Below are positions 15,700 through 60,753 of a stretch of 64,000 bases of DNA, in pieces. Under the pieces are notes generated by a model that was given only the letters and a program-made list of their open reading frames with translations, had not been told where the DNA came from and did no database searches. The DNA is taken from NCBI RefSeq assembly GCF_024609325.1, contig NZ_JANHMQ010000002.1, forward strand, positions 124,001 through 188,000, read 5' to 3'. The translations under genes were made by a program, and so were the position numbers. Origin of the DNA: Geothrix fuzhouensis. GTDB lineage: Bacteria; Acidobacteriota; Holophagae; Holophagales; Holophagaceae. The first letter of the stretch is position 1, and each line of letters starts with the position of its first letter.

Positions 15700-15745
15700 A
15701 TCCCTTGCGGATCAAGGCGTTTTCCGTCAAGGTGTCTAGACTGCG

Positions 15746-15814
15746 ATGACCCACTCCCGCCGCTTCTTCCCCTTTAGCTTTCGCACCTCGGGTGCGAGGG
15801 TAGGCGGCGTCTAG
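15746..15814 (+). CDS. pheL: Phe-rich leader peptide of the pheA attenuator
   Basis: A 22-codon frame ATG...TAG encodes MTHSRRFFPFSFRTSGARVG plus two residues. Four of six consecutive residues (FFPFSF, codons at 15764-15781) are phenylalanine. The Phe codons lie directly upstream of the first arm of an RNA structure ending in an intrinsic terminator just before pheA. This is the architecture of the enterobacterial pheL leader, although the peptide sequence differs. A convincing ribosome binding site is not obvious (AAGGTG at about 15728 is distant), which is the weakest point. Translation should stall here when charged tRNA-Phe is scarce. Confidence 0.8.
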   Translation: MTHSRRFFPFSFRTSGARVGGV

Positions 15815-15869
15815 AATCCGGAACCGCTTCCGCCATCGCCCCCGAGACCCACCAGGCTCGGGGGTTTTT
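15781..15869 (+). promoter_or_regulatory. Transcription attenuator of pheA-aroG
   Basis: Three mutually exclusive pairings are visible. Segments 1:2 pair TCGCACC (15781-15787) with GGTGCGA (15791-15797). Segments 2:3 pair CTCGGGTGCGA (15787-15797) with TCGCCCCCGAG (15836-15846), 10 of 11 positions matched. Segments 3:4 pair CCCCCGAG (15839-15846) with CTCGGGGG (15857-15864), followed by TTTTT. A ribosome stalled on the Phe codons would cover segment 1, allow 2:3 and permit read-through; otherwise 3:4 terminates before pheA. Confidence 0.85.
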
Positions 15870-15887
15870 GCATTCCAGGAGTTCCCC

Positions 15888-16985
15888 ATGACCGAGATCC
15901 CAGCTCTTCCCGGCCTCCGTCAGGCCATCGACGCCGTGGACGATCAGATGTTGGACCTGCTCAACCGCCGGGCCGCCCTGGCCGCCGAGGTGGGCCGCCT
16001 GAAGGTGGCCGCCACGCCCGAGGCGCTCTTCCATGCCCCGGCCCGGGAGCGGGAGGTGTTGGCCCGCCTGGAGGCGGAGAACACCGGCCCCTTCCCCCCG
16101 GCGGCGGTGCGCACGGTCTTCCAGGAAATCATGAGCGCCTGCCTCAGCCTGGAGAAGCCGCTGCGGGTGGCCTTCCTCGGTCCCGAGGGTACGTTCACGC
16201 ACCTGGCGGCTCGGCATCAGTTCGGCGGGTCCAGCCAATCGCTGCCCCAGGGCACCATCCAGGCTGTGTTCCAGGCCGTGGAGCGCCAGCGCGCCGACTA
16301 CGGCGTGGTGCCCGTGGAAAATGCCACCGAGGGGGCTGTGGACACCACCCTGGATGCCTTTCTCGATAGCCCGCTGCAGATCTGCGCCGAGATCCTGCTG
16401 CCCGTGGACCAGGCGCTGCTGCTGCGCCCCGGCCTGGACCTGGGCGGCGTGCGCCGGGTCTACTCCCATCCCCAGGCCCTGGGCCAGTGCCGTCGCTGGC
16501 TGGAGGCGCACCTGCCCGGGGCGGACCGCATCGAGGCGCCGTCCACGTCCGAGGCCGCCCGCCTCACCCGGGAGGACGCCGAGGGCGCCGCCGTGGCCTC
16601 GGAGCTGGCCGCGGACCTCTTCGGCCTGCAGGTGGCCGAGACCAAGATCCAGGATCTGGCCGCCAACGCCACCCGCTTCCTCGTGCTGGGGCCGAAGTCC
16701 GCCGAGCCCACGGGTCGGGACCGCACCACCCTGCTGGCCATGGCCCAGGACGGCCCCGGTGCCCTGCTGCGCCTGCTGGAGCCCCTGGCCCGCCGGGGCC
16801 TCAACCTCAGCCGCATCCAGAGCCGGCCGACCCGGCGGAAGGTCTGGGAGTACGCCTTCTTCCTGGATGTGGAGGGGCATGCCGCCGACGCCCCCATGGC
16901 CGAGGCCCTGGTCGAACTCGAGGCTGCCTGCGCCTCGCTCAAGGTGCTGGGCAGTTACCCGAGGGCCGTGGAGGTAGCGCGATGA
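15888..16985 (+). CDS. pheA: Bifunctional chorismate mutase / prephenate dehydratase (P-protein)
   Basis: The 365-residue enzyme converts chorismate to prephenate and then to phenylpyruvate. Residues about 5-90 are an AroQ-type chorismate mutase (LRQAIDAVDDQMLDLLNRRAALAAEV). Residues about 93-270 are prephenate dehydratase (VAFLGPEGTFTHLAA, the DYGVVPVENATEGAV loop, and the catalytic NATRFLVLG). Residues about 280-360 are an ACT domain (TTLLAMAQDGPGALLRLLEPLARRGLNLSRIQSRP) expected to bind Phe for feedback inhibition. It follows a Phe attenuator, and its stop overlaps the aroG start (ATGA), so both are translationally coupled. The enzyme is thus controlled at transcription and allosterically. 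Confidence 0.96.
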   Translation: MTEIPALPGLRQAIDAVDDQMLDLLNRRAALAAEVGRLKVAATPEALFHAPAREREVLARLEAENTGPFPPAAVRTVFQEIMSACLSLEKPLRVAFLGPEGTFTHLAARHQFGGSSQSLPQGTIQAVFQAVERQRADYGVVPVENATEGAVDTTLDAFLDSPLQICAEILLPVDQALLLRPGLDLGGVRRVYSHPQALGQCRRWLEAHLPGADRIEAPSTSEAARLTREDAEGAAVASELAADLFGLQVAETKIQDLAANATRFLVLGPKSAEPTGRDRTTLLAMAQDGPGALLRLLEPLARRGLNLSRIQSRPTRRKVWEYAFFLDVEGHAADAPMAEALVELEAACASLKVLGSYPRAVEVAR

Positions 16986-18310
16986 CAGGGATGGCCTGGA
17001 CCCCCGATTCCTGGCGCGGCCTGCCCGCCGCTCAGCAGCCACGCTACCGCGACGTCGCCGCCGTGGAGGCCGCCCTCACCGAGTTGCGGGAGTTGCCGCC
17101 CCTGGTGGTGGCCGAGGAGGTGGACCACCTGCGCAGCCTGATCGCCGAGGCCGCGGCAGGAAAGCGCTTCCTCCTCCAGGGCGGCGACTGCGCCGAGGCC
17201 TTCGACGACTGCCGCGGCGCCATCATCCAGGACAAGCTTCGGGTTCTGCTTCAGATGTCCGTGCTCATCACCCACGGCGGGCGCACGGGCGTCATCCACC
17301 TGGGCCGCATCGCGGGTCAGTACGCCAAGCCCCGCAGCGGCGATACGGAAATGGTGGAAGGTCGCCGGGTGCCGGTCTACCGCGGCGACCTCATCAACGG
17401 CGTGGCCCTGGACCAGCGCGAGGCCGATCCCCAGCGCCTGCTGGAGGCCTACCACCGTGCCGCCGCCACCTTGAATCACCTGCGGGCCCTGGTGGCTGGC
17501 GGCTTCGCCGACCTGCACAACCCCGAGCACTGGGAACTGCCCTGGAGCCGGGAGGACGCCGGCCACTACCTGGAGACGCTGGATCAGGTACGGGCCTCCC
17601 TCGACTTCGTGCAGTGCCTGGGCGGTCTGCCCGAGCACCTCCGCACCGGTGAGCTGTTCACCAGCCACGAGGCCCTGCACCTGCCTTTCGAGACGGCGCT
17701 GACCCGCTGGGTGCCGGAGAAGTCGGCCCACTACAACCTGGGGGCGCACTTCCTCTGGATCGGCGAGCGGACCCGCCAGCTGGACGGCGCCCACCTGGAG
17801 TACATCCGCGGCCTGGCGAACCCCATCGGCCTCAAGGTGGGCCCCACCATGACGCCCGACGACCTGCGCACCACCCTGGCGAAGCTGGATCCCCAGCGCC
17901 AGCCGGGCCGCCTCACCCTCATCACGCGCTTCGGCGCGGGCAAGGCCGGCCGCGTCCTCCCCGCCCTGATCGAAACGGCCCGGGCCGAGGGCCACCCCGT
18001 GCTGTGGAGCTGCGATCCCATGCACGGCAACGGGCGCACGACCGCGGGAGGCGTGAAGACCCGGGCTTTCGGCGACATCCTTCAGGAGCTGCGGGAAGTG
18101 GCCGACCTCCACCGTAACCACGGGTCGAGGCTGCGGGCGGTCCACTTCGAACTCACCGGCGAGCCCGTCACCGAGTGCACCGGCGGCGTCGAAGGACTCG
18201 ACGAAGCGGGCCTCCACGCAGCCTACCGCAGCGGCTGCGATCCCCGCCTCAACCGCAGCCAGAGCCTGGAGATGGCTTTTCTGATCGCTCAGATGATGCG
18301 GCGGCCCTGA
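16982..18310 (+). CDS. aroG: 3-deoxy-7-phosphoheptulonate synthase, class II
   Basis: The 442-residue protein is a class II (plant/mycobacterial type) DAHP synthase condensing PEP and erythrose 4-phosphate, the first shikimate step. Family blocks are clear: FLLQGGDCAEAF near residue 65, GRIAGQYAKPRSG, LYTSHEALHLPFE-like FTSHEALHLPFETAL, GLANPIGLKVGPTM, LITRFGAGKAGRVLPALI, WSCDPMHGN and HFELTGEPVTECTGG. The start ATG overlaps the pheA stop by four bases. Placement after pheA suggests that the phenylalanine attenuator also controls entry into the pathway. Length is typical. Confidence 0.95.
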   Translation: MTGMAWTPDSWRGLPAAQQPRYRDVAAVEAALTELRELPPLVVAEEVDHLRSLIAEAAAGKRFLLQGGDCAEAFDDCRGAIIQDKLRVLLQMSVLITHGGRTGVIHLGRIAGQYAKPRSGDTEMVEGRRVPVYRGDLINGVALDQREADPQRLLEAYHRAAATLNHLRALVAGGFADLHNPEHWELPWSREDAGHYLETLDQVRASLDFVQCLGGLPEHLRTGELFTSHEALHLPFETALTRWVPEKSAHYNLGAHFLWIGERTRQLDGAHLEYIRGLANPIGLKVGPTMTPDDLRTTLAKLDPQRQPGRLTLITRFGAGKAGRVLPALIETARAEGHPVLWSCDPMHGNGRTTAGGVKTRAFGDILQELREVADLHRNHGSRLRAVHFELTGEPVTECTGGVEGLDEAGLHAAYRSGCDPRLNRSQSLEMAFLIAQMMRRP

Positions 18311-35541: not shown

Positions 35542-35604
35542 CGTCGTGGCGGCTGGGCGGATCCCCTGTGGTGGGAAACCATGGCCCAGCCCGTTCCCAC
35601 GACG
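35542..35604 (-). promoter_or_regulatory. Expression-platform hairpin between B12 riboswitch and btuB
   Basis: CGTCGTGG (35542-35549) pairs with CCACGACG (35597-35604), and inside it GGCTGGGC (35551-35558) pairs with GCCCAGCC (35584-35591). The structure ends a few bases before the btuB GGAGG. There is no U tract, so translational control is likelier than termination. Confidence 0.5.
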
Positions 35605-35609
35605 GGGGG

Positions 35610-35790
35610 TGAGGTGCAGGACCGGTCTCCGGGCTCGCACGCGACAGGGGCCTTTCAGCTCCCTCCGAGCCTTCCCGGGACGATCCCAGTGACTCGGACT
35701 TGAGGTCTCACGCCGGTGCTGCGTTGGCGTGGTGCATACCGTTGCGGGGCAGCGCAGGAGTCTCACCTGCTTCCCGTGCATCCAGCACGA
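35610..35790 (-). ncRNA. Cobalamin (B12) riboswitch
   Basis: Read leftward, the conserved blocks occur in order: GGGAAGCAGGTGAGA, then CTGCCCCGCAACGGTA, then GTCACTGGGA (B12-box variant), CCCGGGAAGG and GAGCCCGGAGACCGGTCCTGC. These match the AdoCbl riboswitch consensus. It lies about 90 bp upstream of btuB and should shut off receptor synthesis when B12 is plentiful. Confidence 0.93.
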
Positions 35791-35848
35791 AATTGTCAGG
35801 CCTCCAGGGAAACACGGCATCGGGAACGGGTGCAAGTACAATGGCCAG

Positions 35849-59250: not shown

Positions 59251-60753
59251 TCATTCAGCCTCCATCGCTTCGCCCATCTTCGCGGCGATCTTCTCAGCAG
59301 CGATGCGCTTCTTGTGGCGCTCCAGGTGGGCATAGTGTTTTTTCGTGGTGACGGTGGAGGCGTGGCCTGCAACCTCGGCAAGCGCTTCGAGGGTCTGCCC
59401 CTCATCGCCATAGGTGACGGATAGCGCGGTCCTGCGGAGGTCATGGAGGTGCACGTCTTCGATGTTGAGGGCCTCCGCCTTTTTCTTTTTCTTGGCCTTC
59501 ACGAGCTCGGCTTCATCCTTGGTCAGGCGCTCGCGGATTCGCTCCCACACCTTTTGAAGGCCGATGAAGTGCCCCAGCTCCTCGCCGGGCTCCGGGGTGA
59601 TTGGGGAAGGGAATACCCAAGGGCTTCCGGCCCGCGTCGCCTGAGCTCTGAGGATCTTTCCGAGCTGAGGTGTGATGGCCACGAGCTTGGCCCCGGAGCG
59701 GCGGGAAGACTTGTGTTCTTCCTTCTTGATCCACCCTGTAATGGCTTCCTGCACCTCTCCGGATTCGGGGTCTGTGGTCGGCTCATCCCATTCGATCTCA
59801 TCCCAGCGAAGGGTGAGGCACTCTTGCAGGCGCATGGCGGATAGGAGGAGGGCGCGGATGGCTCCGGCGGCGGCGGGGTCAATTCCAGTCTTCTTGGATT
59901 GCGGGTCTGTTTCCTTCTCCGCCTTCTCCGCCTCCATGGCTCGCATGGTGCGCTCAAGGGCTTTCCGTTCGGCCTGGGATAAGATGCGCTCGCGCACCTT
60001 GGCGGCACCCGTGACCTGCTTTTTCAGCTTGTAGGCAGGGTTGTCCGTCCTCCAGGGTGGAGCCTCCTCCAGAGCCAGATTGAAGATTTTGGAAAGCACC
60101 CGGAGGGCGGCGTCTGCCTGGGAAGGGTGTTCCCGCATGGCGTCCGACCTGTGCCAGTCCTTAACCTCTGCCCGTGTCACGTCTGCCACCAGACGATCGC
60201 TCCAGTACGGCAGAATCACCCGCTTGATGAGTGCATTCGTCCATGCCTCCGTGGAGGCCTTCACGTTGGCCCGATCCGCCGCATAGGTTGCGTACAGCTT
60301 GCAGGCGTCGGCCATGGTCGGGGCCTTGCTTTTGCCCTCTGCAATCCTCACGGCCTCTTCAGTAGCGGCGGCCTTGGCTTTCCTTGCTTCCTCGCGGAGC
60401 CTGTTCCGCTCCTCCATCGGATCCTTCTCCGCCTTCATCTTCCGCACCTCGGCGGCCTTGGCGTGGAGCTCCTCCAGGCTCACGTCCTCCGGGTAGGATC
60501 CCAGCGGGTACCAGATGATCTTTCCCCTAGGCTCTGCGCGATAGCAGACGTAGCAGGGCGCGGAGCCTTGTGGACCTGGTAGCAGGCGGATGCAGAGTCC
60601 TTTGATGGCCCCCAGGCCTACCACCATCGTCTTGGTGCGCGGTTCCTTCTTCTTTGGATCCGGGCTCTTGAACCCATCGAGGAGGCGCTTGAGGTTCGTG
60701 GCGGTGACAGGCCTGCTGATTACTGATCCGCAGGCTGCACCTATCAGGATCAC
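59251..60753 (-). CDS. int: Tyrosine-type site-specific integrase
   Basis: The 500-residue recombinase has a DUF4102-like arm-binding N-terminus (KIIWYPLGSYPEDVSLEELHAKAAEVRKMKAEKDP), a core-binding SAM-like domain (ADACKLYATYAADRANVKASTEAW) and the catalytic domain. The catalytic residues include Arg in SAMRLQECLTLRWDEI, HDLRR, the GHASTVTTKKHYAHLERHK block with the second His and the nucleophile Tyr. It is of the P4/tRNA-integrating class. The first roughly 16 codons (from GTG 60753) are antisense to a nucleotidyltransferase relic, so the start may be supplied by flanking DNA. An internal ATG near 60624 would lose part of the arm domain. Confidence 0.88.
   Translation of the reverse strand: MILIGAACGSVISRPVTATNLKRLLDGFKSPDPKKKEPRTKTMVVGLGAIKGLCIRLLPGPQGSAPCYVCYRAEPRGKIIWYPLGSYPEDVSLEELHAKAAEVRKMKAEKDPMEERNRLREEARKAKAAATEEAVRIAEGKSKAPTMADACKLYATYAADRANVKASTEAWTNALIKRVILPYWSDRLVADVTRAEVKDWHRSDAMREHPSQADAALRVLSKIFNLALEEAPPWRTDNPAYKLKKQVTGAAKVRERILSQAERKALERTMRAMEAEKAEKETDPQSKKTGIDPAAAGAIRALLLSAMRLQECLTLRWDEIEWDEPTTDPESGEVQEAITGWIKKEEHKSSRRSGAKLVAITPQLGKILRAQATRAGSPWVFPSPITPEPGEELGHFIGLQKVWERIRERLTKDEAELVKAKKKKKAEALNIEDVHLHDLRRTALSVTYGDEGQTLEALAEVAGHASTVTTKKHYAHLERHKKRIAAEKIAAKMGEAMEAE

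Follow-up and report, generated by a model that had tools for sequence, protein, structure and literature searches.

Analysis of a 64,000-nt stretch of the Geothrix fuzhouensis genome (hereafter, the window) indicated that the region upstream of pheA and a class II DAHP synthase gene very probably contains a transcription attenuator of the ribosome-mediated type, sensing charged tRNA-Phe and controlling both genes. An earlier note on this DNA had recognized in the region the logic of E. coli pheL, and attenuation of this type was supported as the best reading by the conserved Phe codons, the mutually exclusive helices, and the Phe-pathway genes. All features of the element described below are located on the + strand.

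The leader peptide ORF (15746–15814), identified by direct reading, comprises 22 codons encoding MTHSRRFFPFSFRTSGARVGGV and a TAG stop. Phe occupies codons 7, 8, 10, and 12 within the sequence TTC TTC CCC TTT AGC TTT (15764–15781), which bore out the earlier description of a 22-codon frame with four Phe in six codons. Short ATG-initiated ORFs with four Phe in six codons were obtained in 0/2000 shuffles of positions 15700–15887, and one other ORF of this composition was present within the 64 kb, at 59462 on the + strand, antisense to a 500-aa integrase-like ORF. The strongest check on the reality of the leader was its conservation across the genus. The ORF was kept in 36 distinct Geothrix leaders, all of which had at least three Phe, and the genus-wide codon counts placed Phe at codons 8, 10, and 12 in 35/36, 35/36, and 36/36 leaders, respectively. 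Codon 7 was Phe or Tyr in 26 of the 36, and both TTC and TTT were used at the conserved Phe codons, which amounts to synonymous swaps. Three Phe were still present in the divergent leader MTNPFRPFTSAFRTPGAEAGGV. Thus, the case that had been named as contrary to attenuation, a leader keeping the terminator and losing the Phe codons, did not occur among the 36 genus leaders.

The first gene downstream, pheA (15888–16985), encodes a protein with chorismate mutase (CM_2), prephenate dehydratase (PDT), and ACT domains according to Pfam, and both NCBIfam PRK11898.1 and CM_P2 scored above the cut-off. Its Shine-Dalgarno sequence, AGGAG (15877–15881), was read directly and lies outside the terminator hairpin. 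The second gene (aroG, 16982–18310) was assigned to class II DAHP synthases (PF01474, E = 3e-175), with TIGR01358 at 568.7 bits, under its cut-off of 614.7. The pheA stop and the start of the second gene overlap in ATGA at 16982–16985; together with the Pfam domains, this confirmed the operon of a P-protein and a class II DAHP synthase that had been proposed.

Folding recovered all three competing pairings of the earlier note as well as the TTTTT tract. Hairpin 1:2 has a core at 15781–15787/15791–15797, lengthened by weaker pairs to 15777–15787/15791–15801 (96.8% of cells paired, 28 distinct sequences). The antiterminator 2:3 (element 15787–15846; 93.6% of cells paired) consists of 15787–15797/15836–15846, which carries one U.C mismatch, together with 15799–15801/15832–15834 and 15802–15807/15824–15829. 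The intrinsic terminator 3:4 (15839–15869; 99.3% of cells paired) has a stem at 15839–15849/15855–15864 and a T5 tract at 15865–15869. Its folding energy was approximately -21 kcal/mol (z = -3.8 against shuffles), and that of the 132-nt leader RNA was -55.9 kcal/mol (z = -3.2). No other part of the leader region was as strong or as well conserved as the terminator. Arm 3 (15836–15846) is common to the antiterminator and the terminator, which makes these helices mutually exclusive, and this arrangement was retained genus-wide. Arms 1–4 were kept, with 98.0% and 93.6% of cells paired; sliding the partner gave no more than 61% and 50%. Most members had T4–T5 after the hairpin, and the U tract was imperfect in some orthologs (GGGGGCTTCGC, GGGGGCTTTCG).

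The alignment check suggested earlier gave a divided answer: the Phe codons were conserved, but changes across the genus alignment were few, and covariation in the helices was not above shuffles, since the element varies too little among members of the genus. The helices therefore rest on conservation and energetics, and part of the leader conservation is coding constraint mixed with pairing constraint. The 3:4 hairpin was absent from the output of a simple terminator scan, presumably owing to the bulge in its stem. The Rfam search returned nothing relevant for the leader at the gathering score or at E ≤ 10; elsewhere in the window, at 35603–35800 on the - strand, it identified a cobalamin riboswitch (RF00174, 71.4 bits).

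To compute how the fold depends on where the ribosome stands, the RNA downstream of a parked ribosome was folded, with the leading edge set 12 nt downstream of the first A-site nucleotide. Before the 3' arm of the terminator was made, the probability that the antiterminator held the terminator arm was approximately 0.73 with the ribosome at Phe codons 7–10, 0.49 at codon 12, and 0.23 at the stop. At equilibrium in the complete RNA, the terminator probability was 0.28 at codon 10, 0.11 at codon 11, and 0.98 at the stop. In RNA that was not being translated, the opening codons of the leader paired with 15803–15810, antiterminator occupancy was 0.28, and termination was favoured. Across 41 modelled leaders, antiterminator occupancy was 0.30–0.99 at the aromatic codons and 0.03–0.39 at the stop. 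Several of these had an equilibrium terminator probability of at least 0.97 at every ribosome position, so the switch in them must be kinetic according to the model. Overall, the parked-ribosome model indicates that the fold switches at the Phe codons.

The earlier note had found no obvious ribosome binding site for the leader, and a conserved promoter with a near-leaderless start is the likely answer. The putative promoter (15705–15733) includes a -35 element TTGCGG (15705–15710), a 17-nt spacer, and a weak -10-like hexamer CAAGGT (15728–15733). The pattern TTGNNN-N16-18-[CT]ANNNT-N4-14-ATG was found in 29/29 orthologous loci versus 0.7% of shuffled upstream regions; the spacer was 17 nt in 27 of the 29 loci, and the distance from the end of the -10-like element to the ATG was 9–13 nt (12 nt in 25/29). 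A simple promoter scan did not list this promoter, presumably owing to the CAAGGT hexamer. Judging from the promoter position, the 5' UTR is predicted to be about 5–6 nt long (15740–15745), and the Phe leader is thus likely near-leaderless. A start 5–6 nt before the ATG would be too close for a Shine-Dalgarno sequence, and none would be needed; against this, SD-like matches of at least 4 bases occurred in 7/29 Phe-leader upstream regions. In the proC leaders of six genomes, described below with the other leaders, TATNNT ended 6–7 nt before the ATG in 6/7 cases, a strict leaderless pattern, which places the predicted transcription start on or beside the A of the ATG. The published criterion for leaderless genes is a -10 element whose first T lies approximately 12 nt ahead of the start codon (PMC3160421); the predicted promoter positions appear broadly in line with it, strictly for the proC leaders and in a near-leaderless form for the Phe leader.

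From these features, we infer the following sequence of events. Transcription would begin several nucleotides upstream of the ATG of the leader, and the leader would be translated without a Shine-Dalgarno sequence. When Phe is ample, the ribosome would pass codons 7–12 toward the stop and occlude arm 2 (15787–15797), so that the antiterminator could not form; the terminator (15839–15864) with its U tract would then form, and transcription would end near 15869. When Phe-tRNA is scarce, the ribosome would slow at the UUC/UUU codons 7–12, covering arm 1 and leaving arm 2 free. Arm 2 would then pair with arm 3, the terminator would be pre-empted, and RNA polymerase would read into pheA-aroG.

Other explanations were weighed against the same data. 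The leader ORF might not be a sensor, the terminator being constitutive or part of an attenuator controlled by a protein or RNA, and the Phe run incidental. Such a reading would fit a terminator that is the strongest and best-conserved part of the region and is favoured in the naked RNA of the window leader; however, it leaves unaccounted for Phe codons that persist at positions 8, 10, and 12 (35/36, 35/36, and 36/36 leaders) through synonymous changes, the cognate residues that leaders of other pathways carry in the same genome, and the absence of a comparable Phe cluster from all 2000 shuffles. We regard it as very improbable. It is also very improbable that the conserved peptide acts in trans like Sinorhizobium peTrpL, with or without attenuation in cis. 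Conservation does extend past the Phe codons (FRTxGARVGGV), and peTrpL likewise comes from an RNA starting at its ATG (PMC7298713); however, the conserved codons at the C-terminal end map onto the arms of helices 1:2 and 2:3, and pairing in the RNA therefore accounts for their conservation, and the leaders of other genera differ in sequence yet retain Phe/Tyr codons.

The least probable of the alternatives is control exerted mainly on translation or through transcript decay rather than termination. It would be in line with the U tracts being imperfect in some members of the genus, but most members have T4–T5 after the hairpin, and the pheA Shine-Dalgarno in the window stands outside the hairpins, so nothing evident sequesters it. 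Attenuation by a ribosome translating the Phe codons is thus the reading that we retain.

Every intact Geothrix pheA locus that was read had the leader (36 distinct leaders), and in the first set of same-genus pheA loci, the leader and terminator were found in 29/29. A Phe leader of this kind is also present in the cultured relative Geothrix fermentans DSM 14018. The covariance model of the leader (R1) matched 38 genomes of the genus (E ≤ 5e-28) and three genomes from two sister genera (E ≤ 2.1e-9), and gave no matches in other families of the class. Among 396 genomes of the phylum, the single weak match outside the family (G344) proved on reading to contain no Phe leader. Aromatic-rich short ORFs were found upstream of 11 of 75 more distant pheA genes, a rate close to that in shuffled upstream regions (11.5%); thus, no claim is made beyond Holophagaceae. 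In Desulfobacteraceae UBA5616 (L261) and Pseudomonadales Ast373_bin18 (L277), pheA relatives are preceded by short ORFs containing WNFWGNRFFYFAPLF and RFYYW, which are possible independent aromatic leaders.

Genus members without pheA had a class II DAHP synthase gene elsewhere, with no evident leader. The genomes G009, G017, G019, G028, and G068 (most >90% complete) lacked both a full-length pheA and the Phe leader, and in several, the class II DAHP synthase gene adjoined a response-regulator-like ORF; these organisms are possibly Phe auxotrophs or use another route. In G011 (L079, G011:C82:27784-27907), the Phe leader and terminator were followed by only the first pheA codons and then by a sequence resembling antisense moaA. 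The arrangement resembles a deletion that removed pheA-aroG and the gene after it, and a misassembly is possible because the assembly is 72% complete.

The identity of the regulatory codons was compared with the downstream genes. At the Geothrix loci of pheA and class II DAHP synthase, the leaders were Phe-led, some with Tyr at codon 7, and upstream of class II DAHP synthase alone (G080, G082), the leaders contained FFYYFGF and SFYYFGF. In other genera, pheA is part of a CM-PDT-ACT-DAHPS fusion. In G088, G074, and G085 (L146, L148, and L149), it forms one ORF of approximately 675 aa, CM_2-PDT-ACT-DAHP_synth_1, with a class I DAHP synthase, an architecture confirmed by Pfam in the G088 protein. 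The leaders of the fused loci read TFTFT...RRYYY, FSFTYAYRYF, FAFTYAYRRYF, or FYAFTCAAGRFYFGF; most had both Phe and Tyr, while the G074 leader had Phe only, so codon tracking is not perfect. With the exception of G074, codon identity appears largely to follow the target gene, which supports a sensing role.

At least seven leader-peptide attenuators, including the Phe leader, are predicted in the genome to which the window belongs. The five best matches of the Phe covariance model in this genome precede pheA, ilvA, proBA, proC, and asnB, and the four ranked under pheA (E 0.003–0.15) were all amino-acid leaders. A codon-blind search for a G-run, a T-run, and then an ATG found these five again and an additional leader before class I DAHP synthase. 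The predicted peptides were MILIPVIHPRPSTLSAGGSCTTS for proC (Pro), MIPVATLNPIPSQPIPGAPVGGI for proBA (Pro), MTFLSARFNRHSNNRLPRANRAWAGEGLT for asnB (Asn), MSHAGSTLIIAAIAIIPSREGA for ilvA (Ile), and MTPRFHTYYWFPHTDRAWHGEGPA for class I DAHP synthase (Tyr-Tyr-Trp-Phe); the seventh leader, with MMTTNGTITHP (Thr), precedes an aspartokinase gene. The six leaders other than that of pheA (L125, L117, L109, L107, L120, and L160) are located at G000:C2:282280, C1:1209469, C1:499510, C1:443023, C1:1556955, and C2:85338, respectively. The target genes of the six leaders from pheA to class I DAHP synthase were checked by Pfam; for proC, an NADP-oxidoreductase domain only was detected, and the name proC was given from the sequence. 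A simple scan of this genome that did not trace operon starts recognized no hisG, trpE, or leuA leaders. At L116 (G000:C1:1036517), a terminator immediately precedes a carA-like ORF and a short ORF is located upstream; this could be another attenuator.

Similar leaders were found in relatives: NPRPS/NPPPS before proB, FNRNNNRPP and RQDNRNNNRPP before asnB, HHARHHVAH before hisG, a Thr leader before an aspartokinase gene, and Tyr/Trp leaders before class I DAHP synthase (G006, G007, G015, G025, and G065). In addition, an Asn-rich leader, RQNNRNNANPS, precedes a 417-aa ORF whose first 160 residues gave no Pfam match (L070, G076:C9:53034-53162).

Thus, a single genome has predicted attenuators for seven amino-acid genes or operons, with codons largely matching the downstream pathway, and the promoters of the examined leaders put the start codon on or close to the predicted 5' end. 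On balance, we lean toward the view that near-leaderless leader-peptide attenuators run much of amino-acid biosynthesis family-wide in Holophagaceae, including kinds undescribed for proBA/proC (Pro), asnB (Asn), and class I DAHP synthase (Tyr-Tyr-Trp-Phe), with regulatory codons that shift with the operon. This suggests that proline and asparagine synthesis may be controllable by codon stalling, and the family may provide a natural test bed for the origin and retargeting of attenuators.

In E. coli, pheL-pheA combines a Phe-rich short leader ORF, hairpins 1:2, 2:3, and 3:4, an intrinsic terminator, and a P-protein gene. The Geothrix leader is similar in its Phe-rich ORF, alternative hairpins, terminator, and downstream P-protein gene. 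However, it is predicted to be near-leaderless, unlike the SD-led E. coli leader, its operon adds a class II DAHP synthase, it belongs to Holophagaceae rather than Gammaproteobacteria, and it matches no Rfam family. The predicted mechanism is classical, and a conserved, near-leaderless attenuator for Phe is predicted here with high confidence, in a lineage without such a description in the open-access literature searched. Attenuation of pheA is listed in PMC1183508, and one open-access paper reports that attenuators in Acidobacteria mostly lack functions. No phenylalanine leader-peptide attenuation in Acidobacteria and no proline or asparagine biosynthetic leaders were found in the open-access literature searched, an absence that is no proof of novelty.

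Leader-peptide control of amino-acid genes outside Proteobacteria is shared with Actinobacteria, in which classical attenuators and the LEU element were described; that survey reported no phenylalanine regulatory structures and did not mention proline or asparagine (PMC1262725). The Salmonella mgtCBR leader, with its short ORFs and its Pro codons, reportedly controls operon read-through (PMC3641672); mgtCBR is an Mg2+/virulence operon, whereas the Pro leaders described above lie ahead of proC and proBA. Although the amino acid and the phylum are different and the Geothrix start site is predicted, the Geothrix leader resembles trpL of Sinorhizobium meliloti, in which a short leader ORF is likewise located at or near the RNA 5' end before a biosynthetic operon (PMC7298713).
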